Positions 29,852-34,555 of a stretch of 64,000 nt of DNA are shown here, piece by piece (the stretch's first letter is position 1; each line of letters begins with the position of its first letter). A program made the position numbers and the translations under genes. The DNA is from Candidatus Methylopumilus rimovensis (GTDB lineage Bacteria > Pseudomonadota > Gammaproteobacteria > Burkholderiales > Methylophilaceae). The stretch lies in the NCBI RefSeq assembly GCF_006364615.1, contig NZ_CP040986.1, positions 124,001 to 188,000 of the forward strand, written 5' to 3'. The notes beneath the pieces were generated by a model. That model was not told the DNA's origin. It did not search any database and saw only the letters and a program-made list of their open reading frames with translations.

Positions 29852-31054
29852 ATGAACAAGAATATTAAATTAGCAGTGGCGGGTGCAATTTTTGCAGCTA
29901 CTTCTGCAGCACAAGCTGGTATTATCATTCCAGCAGGCGATTGGACATTAGACGTAAACGGTAACGTGAACGCATTTGCAATTATGAGCCGCGGAAGTGA
30001 CAATAACGCTATTGTAGGTGGAATTGCACAAAGAAGAGATACTGCTGGTGAGAAATCAGGCCAAGCTATCAATACAGGCTTATTACCAGCATGGTTAGGC
30101 TTTACAGGTACTACACGTCAAAACGACGTAGATGTATCTTTCACAATTTCTATGCAACCAAACGTTTCTGACAACGACACTATGGGCGACGTGCTTGCAC
30201 CATTATTCCGTCAGTCATTCTTAACATTTGGTGATAAATCATGGGGATCATTCAAGCTAGGTAAAGATATTGGTATTTTTGCATCTGATGCTATCTTGAA
30301 CGACATGACATTGCTCGGTGTTGGTGGAGCTGGTGGCGTATCTGGCACTCAAACTACTTTAGGTGGTATCGGTTCTGGCTATATCTATGCAGGATGGAAA
30401 GGTCAAGTGGCTTACACAACACCTAACATGAATGGCTTCCAAGCAACAGTTGGTATCGTGAACCCTAACCAAGGTCTAGTAGGCTCTGGTACAGCATCTG
30501 CTGTAAACAGCTTACACCAAGATCGTTTCGGCCTTGAAGGTAAAGCATCTTACTCATTTACTGGTGACGTAAACGGTAAAATTTGGGTAGGTGGTGCATC
30601 TTATAAAGTTAAACCAACGACTGCAGTTGAATATACCGCAGACGTTTATGACATTGGTGCAAATGTAAATGCTGGTAACTTTGGTTTAACAGGTTATTAC
30701 TACAATGGTGATGGCGTTGGATCATACATGCCACTTCAAAATGGCGCTTCAGCAGCTGGTGTAAAGCGTGATTCAGATGGCGGTTACGTTCAAGCTACAT
30801 ACATATTGCCTACCAAAACTAAAATTGGTCTAGCTTACGGTATATCTAGCTTAGATACGGCAAATGCAGCTGATAATACAGCTACAAGTGGTTTATTATT
30901 TAAAGATAATGAGCGTATTACTCTTGGCGCTTATCACCCACTTACTAAGCACTTAAACTTAGTAGCTGAGTACAACGATATGGAGACTAAAGCTCAAAAT
31001 AACGTTAAGAATGAGTCTCGCTCAGTCTCTCTTGGTGCGATTCTATTCTTCTAA
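29852..31054 (+). CDS. Outer-membrane porin (Gram-negative general porin type)
   Basis: A 400-residue beta-barrel protein with a clear signal peptide (MNKNIKLAVAGAIFAATSAAQA, cut after residue 22 or 23). Alternating beta strands follow, rich in Gly, Asn, Ser and aromatic residues, and the C-terminal strand ends in Phe (VSLGAILFF) as expected for BAM recognition. The SFKLGKDIGIF... and AGWKGQVAYTTPNMNGFQATVGI segments resemble trimeric betaproteobacterial porins. Base use differs from its neighbours, with more C-ending codons such as AAC and GAC, which suggests high expression. It has its own promoter, a structured leader, a strong ribosome-binding site and a clear terminator, so it is a monocistronic, abundant protein. 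Substrate preference cannot be read from sequence. Confidence 0.9.
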   Translation: MNKNIKLAVAGAIFAATSAAQAGIIIPAGDWTLDVNGNVNAFAIMSRGSDNNAIVGGIAQRRDTAGEKSGQAINTGLLPAWLGFTGTTRQNDVDVSFTISMQPNVSDNDTMGDVLAPLFRQSFLTFGDKSWGSFKLGKDIGIFASDAILNDMTLLGVGGAGGVSGTQTTLGGIGSGYIYAGWKGQVAYTTPNMNGFQATVGIVNPNQGLVGSGTASAVNSLHQDRFGLEGKASYSFTGDVNGKIWVGGASYKVKPTTAVEYTADVYDIGANVNAGNFGLTGYYYNGDGVGSYMPLQNGASAAGVKRDSDGGYVQATYILPTKTKIGLAYGISSLDTANAADNTATSGLLFKDNERITLGAYHPLTKHLNLVAEYNDMETKAQNNVKNESRSVSLGAILFF

Positions 31055-31084
31055 GATTAATTTCTTAGTTGTTTAAAGCACTTG

Positions 31085-31113
31085 AAAACGGCAACTTAGG
31101 TTGCCGTTTTTTT
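31085..31113 (+). terminator. Rho-independent terminator of the porin gene
   Basis: AAAACGGCAAC pairs with GTTGCCGTTTT around a TTAG loop, and the T run continues to 31113. It lies 31 bases after the porin stop. Confidence 0.92.
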
Positions 31114-31129: not shown

Positions 31130-31387
31130 TTGAAAATATATATTGTGTTATTTTTAACAGCCCTAAATGTTTCTTGCGCAGCGCTCATGAACCCGCAAGA
31201 GCAACCAGTTAATTTAATTGACGGTAAAGCAAAAATTTATAGTACAAATTGTAGCGGCCTTGCAGAGACTATAGGGACCTGTTACGACAAAGCCAGGAGA
31301 ACATGCAAGGAAGGCTATAACTTGTTGAATGAGGTGCGAGATAGTTCAGGTGTGCATCGTCAGATAAAGTTTCAGTGCAAGGAATGA
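31130..31387 (+). CDS. Small Cys-rich exported protein, possible lipoprotein
   Basis: An 85-residue protein of unknown function using a TTG start preceded by AAGGA. A hydrophobic N-terminus (KIYIVLFLTALNVSC) looks like a signal sequence. Cys16 could be a lipidation site, although Asn at position -3 makes the lipobox weak. The mature part has four cysteines (41, 51, 59, 83) in the pattern C-x9-C-x7-C-x23-C, suggesting two disulfides in the periplasm. The NCSG.....GTCY.KA...C..GY segment recalls small lipoproteins annotated only as hypothetical in other proteobacteria. It is 75 bases beyond the porin and behind the porin terminator, so it may be read by leakage or its own promoter. Confidence 0.65.
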   Translation: MKIYIVLFLTALNVSCAALMNPQEQPVNLIDGKAKIYSTNCSGLAETIGTCYDKARRTCKEGYNLLNEVRDSSGVHRQIKFQCKE

Positions 31388-31435: not shown

Positions 31436-31855
31436 TTATTCGCCAATAATTTTAACGAGCACTCTTTTTTTTCGACGCCCATCAAATTCGCCATAAAAAA
31501 TTTGTTCCCAAGGGCCAAAGTCAAGCTTACCTGAAGATACCGCAATAACAACTTCACGTCCCATAATTTGACGTTTAATATGCGCATCTGCATTATCTTC
31601 ACCTGTATCATTATGGCGATAATTACTTACTGGTTCATGGGGAGCCATTGCCTCTAACCATTTTTTATAGTCGTGATGCAAGCCTGATTCATCATCATTA
31701 ATAAAAACACTTGCCGTAATGTGCATAGCATTTACAAGTATAAGGCCTTCTTTGATGCCGCTTTCAACCAAACATTCTCTTATGTCAGATGTAATATTAG
31801 TAAAGTGCATTCGGGTTGGTGCATTAAACCATAGCTCTTTGCGATAATTTTTCAT
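31436..31855 (-). CDS. YjbQ / UPF0047 family protein
   Basis: A 139-residue single-domain protein of the YjbQ family (secondary thiamine-phosphate synthase-like). Members bind a metal through conserved histidines and show weak thiamine-phosphate synthase activity; the physiological role is unsettled. Visible family motifs are the N-terminal F.NIT.......SGI.EGLILV...[12 protein letters not shown], the [20 protein letters not shown] segment (here [16 protein letters not shown]), and the C-terminal [16 protein letters not shown]. Length is typical (about 138). It lies downstream of the two glycosyltransferase-like genes in the same direction, 27 bases away. Confidence 0.9.
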
Positions 31856-31882: not shown

Positions 31883-32563
31883 TTAAACTTTCATGCCGCA
31901 GATTACTCTTTTTTGATTTGCATGCCAAATATCAGACATGTCGCAATCCCAATATTCTTTAAAACAAGGAGTGCCCAAGGTGTAATGAATTAGCTTTGCA
32001 TTTTTATTTTCTGGATACTCAATAGCAAGCCAATTCCAGTCTTTTGGAAGGTCGCCAATATCTTCATCCTCGAGCCAAGAAAATCTATGAAGAAATTTTC
32101 CCGTTTGATTTGAAATAAAATCTGGCGTTAATAGCCTATGCTTAGGGTGAGAGCAATTCCATAAAATGAGACTAGACCAATTCTTTTTAGGGTAATCCTT
32201 ATTGATATTTCCAAGGTACTTTTTCTGTGCTTTTGTTTTATAGTCGTGCTTTACGACCAGAACTGCTTTTGATTCATCCCTTAAGTCCCATAGTTCTTTA
32301 ATATCTGATTGGCAAATCATATCCCCATCGGCAAAAATAGCCCAGCCACTAAATGCATTTAAATAGGGCGTTAAAAATCTTGAATAAATGAAATCATTGC
32401 TTTTGTCAGTATGAGTTTCATGATATCCCTTTAAGGTGTTAATCGCGAGAGGAGTGAATGAGACGGGTAAGGATGATTTATCCATAATGCTCTGTGTAAA
32501 TGTATGATATGCAATAGATTCTCTTTGATCGAAACCAATGACCATATTAATTTTTTCTACCAT
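31883..32563 (-). CDS. GT8-like glycosyltransferase family protein
   Basis: A 226-residue soluble protein with a nucleotide-sugar transferase look. It has the N-terminal VIGFDQRESIAYHTFTQSI segment, then SNDFIYSRFLTPYL, and a DxD-type motif in IFADGDMICQSD (residues 79-81). A later block is SSLILWNCSH, and GTPCFKEYWDCD lies near the end. Proteins with the GFD.RE..AY....SI opening are common in phages and aquatic bacteria and are usually listed as putative glycosyltransferases. Donor and acceptor are unknown. Its start lies inside the end of the TPR gene (17-base overlap), so the two are probably made together and may act on the same substrate. Confidence 0.72.
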   Translation of the reverse strand: MVEKINMVIGFDQRESIAYHTFTQSIMDKSSLPVSFTPLAINTLKGYHETHTDKSNDFIYSRFLTPYLNAFSGWAIFADGDMICQSDIKELWDLRDESKAVLVVKHDYKTKAQKKYLGNINKDYPKKNWSSLILWNCSHPKHRLLTPDFISNQTGKFLHRFSWLEDEDIGDLPKDWNWLAIEYPENKNAKLIHYTLGTPCFKEYWDCDMSDIWHANQKRVICGMKV

Positions 32564-34157
32564 AATAATCCTTTAAGTCCGAAATAATATTTTCTATTGG
32601 CGCATGCCAAGACTTGTTTGATTCCTGCCTATAGATATTAATTGAAGGATACCATAAGCTTACGTTCCGATTTTCATGCCAGTACCATATTTTTCCGACA
32701 CTATATGGCGCAATTAAATATGTCTTTTTACCTAAGGATCCAGACAAGTGGGCTGTGACATTGCTCGATGTTATTACAAAATCACAAGAGTTAATTAGAG
32801 ATGATAGCCCATCAAAATCATTAAAGTTATCAATCTCATCTATAGTTTTAATTTCAATACCATACTCATCATACAAAGATTTTTTTTCTTCTTTAGTATC
32901 GCCGTATTGAAGGTCTATAAAATCAATATTAGGTAGCTTAAGAATAGGGAGCAATTGTTTTAATGATAGGCTCTTGTCAGGTCCAATTTCTTCATTTTTA
33001 CTTTTCCATGCAATACCACAAATAAATTTTTTACTATTTTTGAATGTTTTTTTGAGAGACATTGATTTTTCCTCATCGAATATGAGGTAATTTAATGGTT
33101 GTTTTTTAAAATCTTCGACTGAGTTTCTAAAAAATTTACCTAGATTGCCAATTGGAAGATGAAAATCATAGGCAGTTTCATTGAGCAACTCTTTTGAAGA
33201 TATGAAAGTAACATTGGAAAATTTTTTGAAAGATCTTTGGTATATAGATATCAGCCTGCGATCAATACTCAAGATAAAATTATTTGACACTGTAAAAGCT
33301 TCTTGAAGTAAAGCACTGAAGAGTATTTGATCACCTATACCCTGCTCTGACCAAATAAGAATATTTTTTTGATTTACGTCAAAATCCAATAATTCAGGTT
33401 TTGATGTCTGCAGATATGAAAGCTTTTTGGCCACCCATCTTGCTTGATAGAATTTCCAACCATCTTCATAATTTTCTTGAGATAACTCAAGAATTGCTTT
33501 ATTAAATAGTGCATCAGGAAAATCAGGATTCAGTTCAATTGCATGATTATAATCTTCTAGAGCTTTTTTAAATTCATTAAGATTTTCGTAAACAATTCCA
33601 CGGTTGTATAAAGTTTCTGCGCTATGAGAATTAATATTTAATGCAAGATTATATTGCTCAAGAGCTTTGTCATACTCTTTAAGTTCATTATACAAAAATC
33701 CTAAATTTACGATTGCCTTTGAGTATTGGGGATTTAATTTTATCGCTTGCTGATAATTTAATATTGCTTCATCATATTTTTGAAGAAATTTTAGCGCTCT
33801 AGCTTTATTATAGTAAGCATCCACAAAATTAGGATCTAATTTAAGAGCAAGGTTGTAGTATTGAAGAGCCTCTTCGAATTTTTCTATTTCCAGCAATCCA
33901 TTTGCTAAGTTTGAGATGGCTTTTGGTTGTTTTTGGTCCACTTCAATAGATTTTTTTATATAGGAAATCCCCCTTTCTATGTCTCCTAATTGTATTTCTA
34001 TTGTTCCAAGATTGGTGAGCACTTGAGGATGATTTGGAACTATTCGTAGCAGTTCTTCAAAGATTAACTTTGCTTCTAAAAATTGACCCTGCTGACAATG
34101 TGCCAGAGATTTTTCAAGAAGTCTTTTTATTTTTAGAGAATTTCTTAATTTGTCCAC
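32547..34157 (-). CDS. TPR-repeat protein with glycosyltransferase-like C-terminal domain
   Basis: A 536-residue protein starting at a GTG (34157). Residues about 10-250 hold roughly seven tetratricopeptide repeats, with recurring A..NLG, YEEA-type and AL.L.P patterns (for example LQYYNLALKLDPNFVDAYYNKA). From about 265 the sequence changes to ILIWSEQGIGDQILFSALL, later FICGIAWKSKNEEIGPDKS and SSLINSCDFVITSSNVTAHLSGSLGKKTYLI. The IGD and TSN.T.HL..SLGK segments resemble the nucleotide-sugar half of GT9/GT41-type enzymes. TPR plus such a domain is the architecture of O-GlcNAc-transferase-like proteins, so a protein or surface glycosylation role is plausible. The acceptor is unknown. It appears more AT-rich than its housekeeping neighbours, and acquisition by transfer is possible. 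Confidence 0.7.
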   Translation of the reverse strand: MDKLRNSLKIKRLLEKSLAHCQQGQFLEAKLIFEELLRIVPNHPQVLTNLGTIEIQLGDIERGISYIKKSIEVDQKQPKAISNLANGLLEIEKFEEALQYYNLALKLDPNFVDAYYNKARALKFLQKYDEAILNYQQAIKLNPQYSKAIVNLGFLYNELKEYDKALEQYNLALNINSHSAETLYNRGIVYENLNEFKKALEDYNHAIELNPDFPDALFNKAILELSQENYEDGWKFYQARWVAKKLSYLQTSKPELLDFDVNQKNILIWSEQGIGDQILFSALLQEAFTVSNNFILSIDRRLISIYQRSFKKFSNVTFISSKELLNETAYDFHLPIGNLGKFFRNSVEDFKKQPLNYLIFDEEKSMSLKKTFKNSKKFICGIAWKSKNEEIGPDKSLSLKQLLPILKLPNIDFIDLQYGDTKEEKKSLYDEYGIEIKTIDEIDNFNDFDGLSSLINSCDFVITSSNVTAHLSGSLGKKTYLIAPYSVGKIWYWHENRNVSLWYPSINIYRQESNKSWHAPIENIISDLKDYYGRKN

Positions 34158-34183: not shown

Positions 34184-34555
34184 CTAATCAAAATTAAGTT
34201 CAACACGGTTTCCTGCAGGATCCCGCAAAAAGATTTGATGGGCTGTCATACCTGGAATAGGTTTTTCTTCAAATGGAATTTGAAGCGATTGGAGCTTTTT
34301 TAAAACATCTTGATAATGAGCTGTTTTAAATGCGACATGATCGAAGGATGATTTATGAAGCGAGCGTCCATCACCTTCTTTAGGTGTAATAAGATGCAAT
34401 ACATCTTTGTCGCCTATATATAACCAAAAGCCAAAGCGCTCGAATGTGGGTCTAAAGCCTTCAGTTAAACCGACGACATCACAATAAAAATCTCTTAACT
34501 GAATCACCAAATCTTTTTTTGCAACAAGCTGAATATGATTGATAGATAAAATCAT
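34184..34555 (-). CDS. VOC (glyoxalase/bleomycin-resistance fold) family protein
   Basis: A 123-residue vicinal-oxygen-chelate protein. It shows the two beta-alpha-beta-beta-beta repeats: SINHIQLVAK with His7, F..DVVGL, then DHVAFKT (second-repeat His), and the closing FLRDPAGNRVELNF, whose Glu is the usual last metal ligand. VOC enzymes range from glyoxalases to dioxygenases, so substrate cannot be assigned. It lies 12 bases downstream of aspS and could be its co-transcribed tail. The GTG of the TPR gene follows 26 bases after its stop. Confidence 0.88.
   Translation of the reverse strand: MILSINHIQLVAKKDLVIQLRDFYCDVVGLTEGFRPTFERFGFWLYIGDKDVLHLITPKEGDGRSLHKSSFDHVAFKTAHYQDVLKKLQSLQIPFEEKPIPGMTAHQIFLRDPAGNRVELNFD

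Follow-up and report, generated by a model that had tools for sequence, protein, structure and literature searches.

What do the two glycosyltransferase-like genes between aspS and a porin gene of Candidatus Methylopumilus rimovensis modify, and do they belong together? The genes lie in the 64 kb stretch of DNA analyzed here (the window), taken from a genome that is a single contig of 1.28 Mb. The first, the TPR-GT gene (32547..34157, minus strand), has a GTG start and encodes a 536-residue protein in which an N-terminal TPR superhelix is followed by a C-terminal GT-B domain. The second (31883..32563, minus strand) has an ATG start and encodes a 226-residue GT8-like glycosyltransferase. Both frames are found where the first-pass annotation had placed them, with the overlap of 17 bases that it described (32547..32563, minus strand), and a Shine-Dalgarno-like AAAGGA (32569..32574, minus strand) stands within the end of the TPR-GT gene, 5 bases 5' of the GT8-like ATG. 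The pair is part of a same-strand run in the order aspS, glyoxalase, TPR-GT, GT8-like, yjbQ; the glyoxalase-family gene upstream (34184..34555, minus strand) and yjbQ (UPF0047; 31436..31855, minus strand) downstream are recurrent neighbors of the pair. The porin gene is convergent with this run, on the opposite strand, 0.8 kb from the pair and past yjbQ and a small ORF, in agreement with the annotated location between the porin region and aspS. The pair had also been thought more AT-rich than its neighbors. This holds for the TPR-GT gene, at 31.1% GC (none of 624 equal-sized windows, taken in 100-base steps across the 64 kb, is as low), and does not hold for the GT8-like gene, whose 35.4% GC is not extreme and is equaled or undercut by 15% of such windows.

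An overlapping pair of predicted glycosyltransferases

The pair is more than two chance ORFs, since homologues of both proteins occur across the proteobacteria and their order is kept in 45 of the 80 loci analyzed. The alignment of GT8-like proteins, scanned against genome contigs, gave 234 relatives, of which the best 80 were analyzed, and pairing was called by a six-frame domain search for a TPR-GT domain at most 400 bases upstream on the same strand. Apart from the 45 paired loci among these best 80, the TPR-GT is downstream in two, elsewhere in three and not found in the DNA around the gene in 29, and in one the upstream sequence is too short. Ten of these 29 loci show a gene-length pattern like that of the g15 genomes (L100, L101, L104, L106, L111, L129, L132, L135, L142 and L145), in which a lone GT8-like gene sits between the glyoxalase gene and yjbQ and the TPR-GTs are found elsewhere. 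The coupling proposed at the outset is thus borne out, and overlap is common: of 32 pairs, one of them viral, in which both ORFs could be delimited, 28 overlap, a count that may be overstated since longest-ORF starts were used. As their records are labeled, most hosts of the GT8-like relatives belong to the alpha-, beta- and gammaproteobacteria, a good part of them aquatic, and a few MAGs carry other labels; the close matches include Candidatus Methylopumilus, for instance M. universalis (L097), whose GT8-like protein is 75% identical to that of the window. On a quick tree of 159 GT domains, built without bootstrap, pairing requires 10 changes, versus 43 in shuffles, and at least four of them are forced by well-supported branches. 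A clean split between paired and unpaired GT domains was rejected, as tandem unpaired copies score alike. We also rejected apparent gene fusions at three loci on GC-rich contigs (L107, L113 and L159): we read the additional N-terminal sequence as an upstream TPR-GT translated in another frame, and the domain coordinates place the TPR-GT domain upstream of the GT8-like gene.

What kind of enzyme is each partner? By Pfam the second is a GT8 member, with a predicted GT-A fold and a DxD motif: it matches PF01501 at 30.9 bits against a curated cut-off of 24.3, as do 48 of 49 members of its alignment at E 0.01. Its model (pLDDT 94.7) aligns with GlyE (Z 18.0 over 196 residues, 3.1 Å) and LgtC (Z 17.1) and matches WbbM at E 3.5e-10, and the matches to GT8 and GT24 enzymes cover its entire length. 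The annotated GFDQRE segment and DGD motif are present at residues 10-15 and 79-81, and the latter (32321..32329, minus strand), which reads D[GC]D in 49 of 49 aligned rows, is presumably the metal/nucleotide-sugar motif, by analogy with GT8 enzymes. HYTLGTP at residues 193-199 (31967..31987, minus strand), which follows H-Y/F-T-x-G-x-P in 45 of 49 rows, we take to be the second metal-ligand region of GT8. The earlier call of a DxD glycosyltransferase therefore agrees with both the Pfam match and the predicted fold. The protein resembles LgtC, WbbM, GlyE and glycogenin in fold and DxD motif but is shorter, at 226 residues, and differs from them in its coupling to a TPR-GT.

LgtC and WbbM act on lipopolysaccharide or surface polysaccharide, and their place among the best GT8 fold matches invites the alternative that the pair likewise modifies lipopolysaccharide or another surface polysaccharide, with any linkage to porin genes incidental. 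The main support for such a role of some members is a related TPR-GT clade in the g15 genus (L085, L087, L088 and L089), which lies beside genes read as LPS-like and a conserved 155-residue gene. Against it, the TPR arms are of a protein-binding kind, no polysaccharide gene adjoins the window pair, and the porin linkage described below is far above chance. We regard a polysaccharide substrate as unlikely for the pair.

In its predicted model (mean pLDDT 91.8, from 24 aligned sequences), the TPR-GT protein begins with seven helix pairs and continues into an alpha/beta region. The seven pairs form residues 1-237 (33447..34157, minus strand), match Pfam TPR models strongly, carry Asn at the identical position in six of seven repeats, and agree with the roughly seven TPRs first counted by eye; by the FlmG precedent discussed below, they presumably constitute a target-binding arm. 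The GT-B domain, approximately residues 245-536 (32550..33425, minus strand), is assigned from the predicted fold and from the motifs E-x-G-x-G-D and S/C-N-x-N/T-A-H-x-x-G, both found in 24 of 24 aligned rows. When the whole model, TPR arm included, was searched with Foldseek, the top matches were Arabidopsis SPINDLY (8dtf; E 1e-17, 653 columns, TM 0.31), with human OGT from rank 11 and TPR-only proteins between the two. VIA-align superposed the model on OGT (5npr) with Z 21.4 over 413 residues at an rmsd of 9.4, although some TPR-only chains score equally high, up to Z 23.0. The large rmsd is compatible with a flexible superhelix, and the low TM-scores to OGT and SPINDLY (0.31-0.44) with two parts that are set differently. 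The model nevertheless has the GT41 layout, in which the TPR superhelix is continuous with the GT-B catalytic region, and the predicted fold thus supports the O-GlcNAc-transferase-like architecture claimed for it. The accompanying claim of a GT9/GT41-like C-terminal domain is upheld chiefly as to the GT-B fold. At the sequence level, a Pfam search at E 1 gave no family for the window domain, and its profile found no PDB chain at E 10; GT41 is absent from the nine Pfam families matched by any of 21 alignment members, and the GT9 profile matches two of the 21 (best E 0.0065), the window protein not among them. By sequence, membership in GT41 is not supported and that in GT9 at most weakly. Neither protein of the pair contains a membrane-like stretch. 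With glycosyltransferase folds predicted for both proteins and the pairing conserved across genome loci, neither of the two outcomes named beforehand as counting against the pair (a structure lacking a nucleotide-sugar pocket; homologues with no conserved pairing) was found.

Could the TPR-GT be a regulatory enzyme like OGT or SPY, modifying cytoplasmic proteins? SPINDLY and OGT are its closest two-domain fold matches and, like it, join a TPR superhelix to a GT-B domain. Unlike them, the window protein is bacterial, lacks a sequence match to GT41 in Pfam or the PDB, and is paired with a second enzyme. Its scattered occurrence (at E 1e-30, in 39 of 370 genomes of the class), its fast divergence at fixed places and the linkage of its relatives to surface-protein genes make a regulatory role very improbable.

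Linkage to porin genes

The porin-like outer-membrane protein encoded near the pair (29852..31054, plus strand) has a signal-peptide-like start and a C-terminal Phe. It matches no Pfam family at E 0.01 and has a weak profile match to chitoporin (E 0.0015). A terminator-like hairpin follows the gene (31084..31111, plus strand; a consensus match only). The small ORF at 31130-31387, between the porin gene and yjbQ, encodes 85 residues with a lipoprotein-like start and no Pfam family.

Is the proximity of porin and pair a coincidence? Across the 11 single-contig Methylophilaceae genomes of two genera that have TPR-GT matches, the window's genome included and G086 (three contigs) and fragmented genomes left out, 13 of 20 TPR-GTs have a porin gene within 2.5 kb, versus 0.22 expected, and 18 of 20 have one within 10 kb (the 20 include one broken copy). 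The genomes are related and several of the places orthologous, and the counts ignore this kinship; even so, chance as the source of a linkage of this size among related genomes is rejected. In a wider survey of 36 Methylophilaceae loci, with three loci of giant forms not counted, a porin is the immediate neighbor of the TPR-GT in 14. Ten of these TPR-GTs are directly behind porinA, the porin family of the window, on the same strand, one is convergent with porinA, and three are directly behind an OprP-type protein, identified as Porin_O_P by Pfam in the one scanned. Two distinct porin families are therefore linked, porinA, which has no Pfam match, and Porin_O_P. At six further loci (L070, L075, L076, L077, L082 and L083) the TPR-GT comes immediately after a set of transporter genes interpreted as pst, in which Pfam identifies an ABC transporter and permease in L075, and in the five genomes with both located, OprP is approximately 8 kb from the pst-linked TPR-GT. 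The pst-type location suggests phosphate-regulated expression.

Porin linkage recurs from several TPR-GT lineages. On the 159-domain tree, the 12 unpaired porin-adjacent TPR-GTs imply at least four gains or losses on well-supported branches, and seven by parsimony versus 11.7 in shuffles; the OprP-linked TPR-GT of G032 groups elsewhere in the tree than the other porin-linked ones. In many g15 genomes the GT8-like gene is approximately 14 kb from the porin-linked TPR-GT. Beyond the family, a PF13609 porin directly precedes the pair in a Comamonadaceae locus (L167), and just follows a second TPR-GT in Rhodocyclaceae (L126); in Polynucleobacter (L134) it is on the opposite strand, some 1.6 kb ahead of the TPR-GT. 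Together with L097 of the Methylophilaceae, these are the only four of the 45 paired genome loci with a porin within approximately 2.5 kb, as counted with three porin profiles and with several loci ending at contig ends. The same three profiles found no porin within 2.5 kb in 40 other gammaproteobacterial TPR-GT regions; one of these (L191) has a weak match at 4 kb.

Do the porins themselves look like acceptors? In an alignment of ten, Ser and Thr make up 33% of residues in loop insertions (110/331) versus 16.5% in conserved columns (498/3020). The long Ser/Thr-rich insertions are mainly those of L056, L068 and L073; the maximum, in L073 (G104), is 20 in 30 residues. The window porin is not Ser/Thr-rich, with a maximum of 8 in 30 residues.

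Proposed function and its precedents

The repeated occurrence of TPR-GT relatives beside porin genes suggests that the pair sugar-coats such a surface protein. We propose, with a confidence that stops just short of even, that the pair is a TPR-guided cytoplasmic protein-glycosylation module acting on the porin. First, the TPR superhelix would bind an unfolded or newly made secreted protein. Second, the GT-B domain would attach the first sugar to Ser/Thr residues. Third, the GT8-like enzyme, translated from the overlapping frame, would add the next. The likeliest acceptor here would be the porin whose gene lies 0.8 kb from the pair; it would be modified ahead of its export by Sec, and the product would be a sugar coat on a surface protein, perhaps against viruses. 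We infer each of these elements, from the activity and the order of action to the Ser/Thr linkage and the porin as acceptor, and glycosylation of a protein of whatever identity is better supported than the porin as its target. As to the donor, two strong matches to NeuB-type synthases elsewhere in this genome (G000:C1:513159-513845 and 520138-520866), with a weak third, make a nonulosonate a possible donor sugar, to judge from these sequences.

The closest precedent is FlmG of Caulobacter crescentus, whose TPR arm, in the passages describing it, binds its flagellin target and whose GT-B domain modifies that target in the cytoplasm (PMC7591256). The TPR-GT has, in its predicted fold, the FlmG-type layout of TPR arm, C-terminal GT-B domain and no membrane anchor (596 residues in FlmG versus 536 here, compared by layout), and related TPR-GTs in other gammaproteobacteria have flagellin genes on one or both sides. 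Unlike FlmG, the window TPR-GT is paired with a GT8-like enzyme, has porin-linked relatives, and belongs to a genome without flagellin: a profile search for Flagellin_N found none in the window's genome (the control was positive in 4 of 14), and flagellin was rejected as the target here. For the porin as carrier of an O-glycan, there is a precedent in MOMP of Campylobacter jejuni, whose glycan is PseD-dependent; unlike the window pair, no dedicated gene pair beside the porin appears in the relevant passages (PMC3909276). The FlmG mechanism, the MOMP precedent and the missing flagellin together lead us to favor the porin-directed, TPR-guided pair. As part of the literature describes them, the HMW1C/NGT enzymes also resemble it in being soluble and cytoplasmic with a secreted surface target, the adhesin HMW1, and differ in being N-linked. 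They are not known to have a classical TPR arm, and PseD is a Maf-type flagellar enzyme rather than a TPR-GT.

The pair had been put forward as the best candidate in this region for an undescribed modification system. In kind it is not undescribed, for glycosylation by a TPR and GT-B protein is known from FlmG, as far as the cited passages go. What looks new is the link between TPR-GTs and porins, apparently unreported within the open-licence literature: porin glycosylation as a phrase retrieved no paper there, and titles and the starts of abstracts yielded the MOMP work and no TPR-GT/porin link. A paper on genomic islands in Methylophilaceae describes three islands, and a term search of its main text found no mention of porin or TPR (PMC10872708). 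If the proposal is correct, TPR-guided cytoplasmic glycosylation extends past flagellin, both to phage capsids and to the porins of streamlined bacteria from fresh and coastal waters. The pair would be a small two-enzyme set whose TPR arm can be tested as a targeting module.

Turnover and other genomic contexts

Porins are common phage receptors, so a fast-changing porin sugar coat would, if real, add a new layer of phage-host interaction in cells without flagellin. Comparison of the window with G054, which has the same gene order, shows eight flanking genes at 89-96% identity, with porinA at 70%, the small ORF at 66%, the GT8-like protein at 73% and the TPR-GT at 45% (54% in its GT part and 33% in its TPR part). 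In G013, three flanking genes are 91-95% identical, the porin 56% and the TPR-GT 43%. Similarly, the TPR-GTs at the OprP place of G044, G054 and G032 share only 29-38% identity in the GT domain. Low identity at kept positions indicates that the places are kept while their contents change, and the far greater divergence of porin and TPR-GT than of their flanks is, as judged from these alignments, what phage pressure would be expected to produce. Co-divergence of porin and adjacent TPR-GT was rejected as evidence: the partial r given dgt, 0.67 (n=11), falls to 0.05 without two near-copies.

In G054, a broken TPR-GT copy with internal stops (4292-5781 of L057, G054:C1:1223000-1237000) stands in tandem before the intact pair, a sign of duplication and turnover at this place. 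Together with the low GC of the TPR-GT gene and the existence of phage homologues, such a copy might suggest that the pair is phage-derived cargo with no role at the cell envelope, recently acquired or decaying. The frames are intact in the window, however, and the motifs of both the GT8-like protein and the TPR-GT are invariant from alpha- to gammaproteobacteria; we give this explanation hardly any weight.

Among nine viral GT8-like loci, a TPR-GT is upstream in one, downstream in one and not found in six, and one is too short; nine stretches of viral contigs matched the GT-B domain searched alone, and none is a relative. Apart from one match at E 0.09, the PHROG families matched are of unknown function. 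In a podovirus (L217) a TPR-GT and a GT8-like gene come after the major capsid gene (PF13252), with other genes between, and in a further viral contig (L053) a single small gene separates an overlapping pair from the SU10-type capsid gene ahead of it. Capsid glycosylation is possible in these two cases. Pelagibacter phage Mosig carries its GT8-like gene among methyltransferase and sulfotransferase genes.

Outside the Methylophilaceae the pair occurs at many unrelated places, with several loci in Polynucleobacter; most SAR116 pairs have no porin neighbor and lie behind a gene read as LolA-like. Flagellins adjoin TPR-GTs that match the GT-B domain profile at three of the 40 other gammaproteobacterial regions (L177, L184 and L188; confirmed by Pfam for L177 and L188). 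Within the Methylophilaceae, the GT8-like gene is located in a Flp/Tad-like pilus locus in three large-genome members examined (11 carry the gene); in L061, TadE is above the Pfam cut-off and Flp_Fap below it. Like porin genes, these flagellin, Flp/Tad-like and capsid genes make bulk surface or virion proteins. Such contexts, and the many loci at which no obvious acceptor stands alongside the pair, favor the alternative that the window pair glycosylates a protein other than the porin, whether one other surface protein or several of them. Against it stand the genome's lack of flagellin and the strong linkage of TPR-GTs to porins within the Methylophilaceae, and we consider it rather unlikely.

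Taking the porin as acceptor, a broader reading would join these observations, and we offer it as doubtful speculation. A separate TPR-GT would have been recruited for each major porin of these streamlined aquatic bacteria (the general porin, and the phosphate porin with the pst-type locus that goes with it), each TPR arm being adapted to the porin it serves. Exchange of the contents at these fixed places would be rapid enough for close relatives to display different sugars on porins that serve as phage receptors, and phages would deploy this two-gene module, downstream of their capsid genes, to coat the virion with sugar. We note, as a separate observation, that at one locus (L200, G197:C5:100000-112500) a GT8-like gene comes after six consecutive TPR-GT domains; further TPR-GTs of that genome, at L177, are flanked by flagellin genes.
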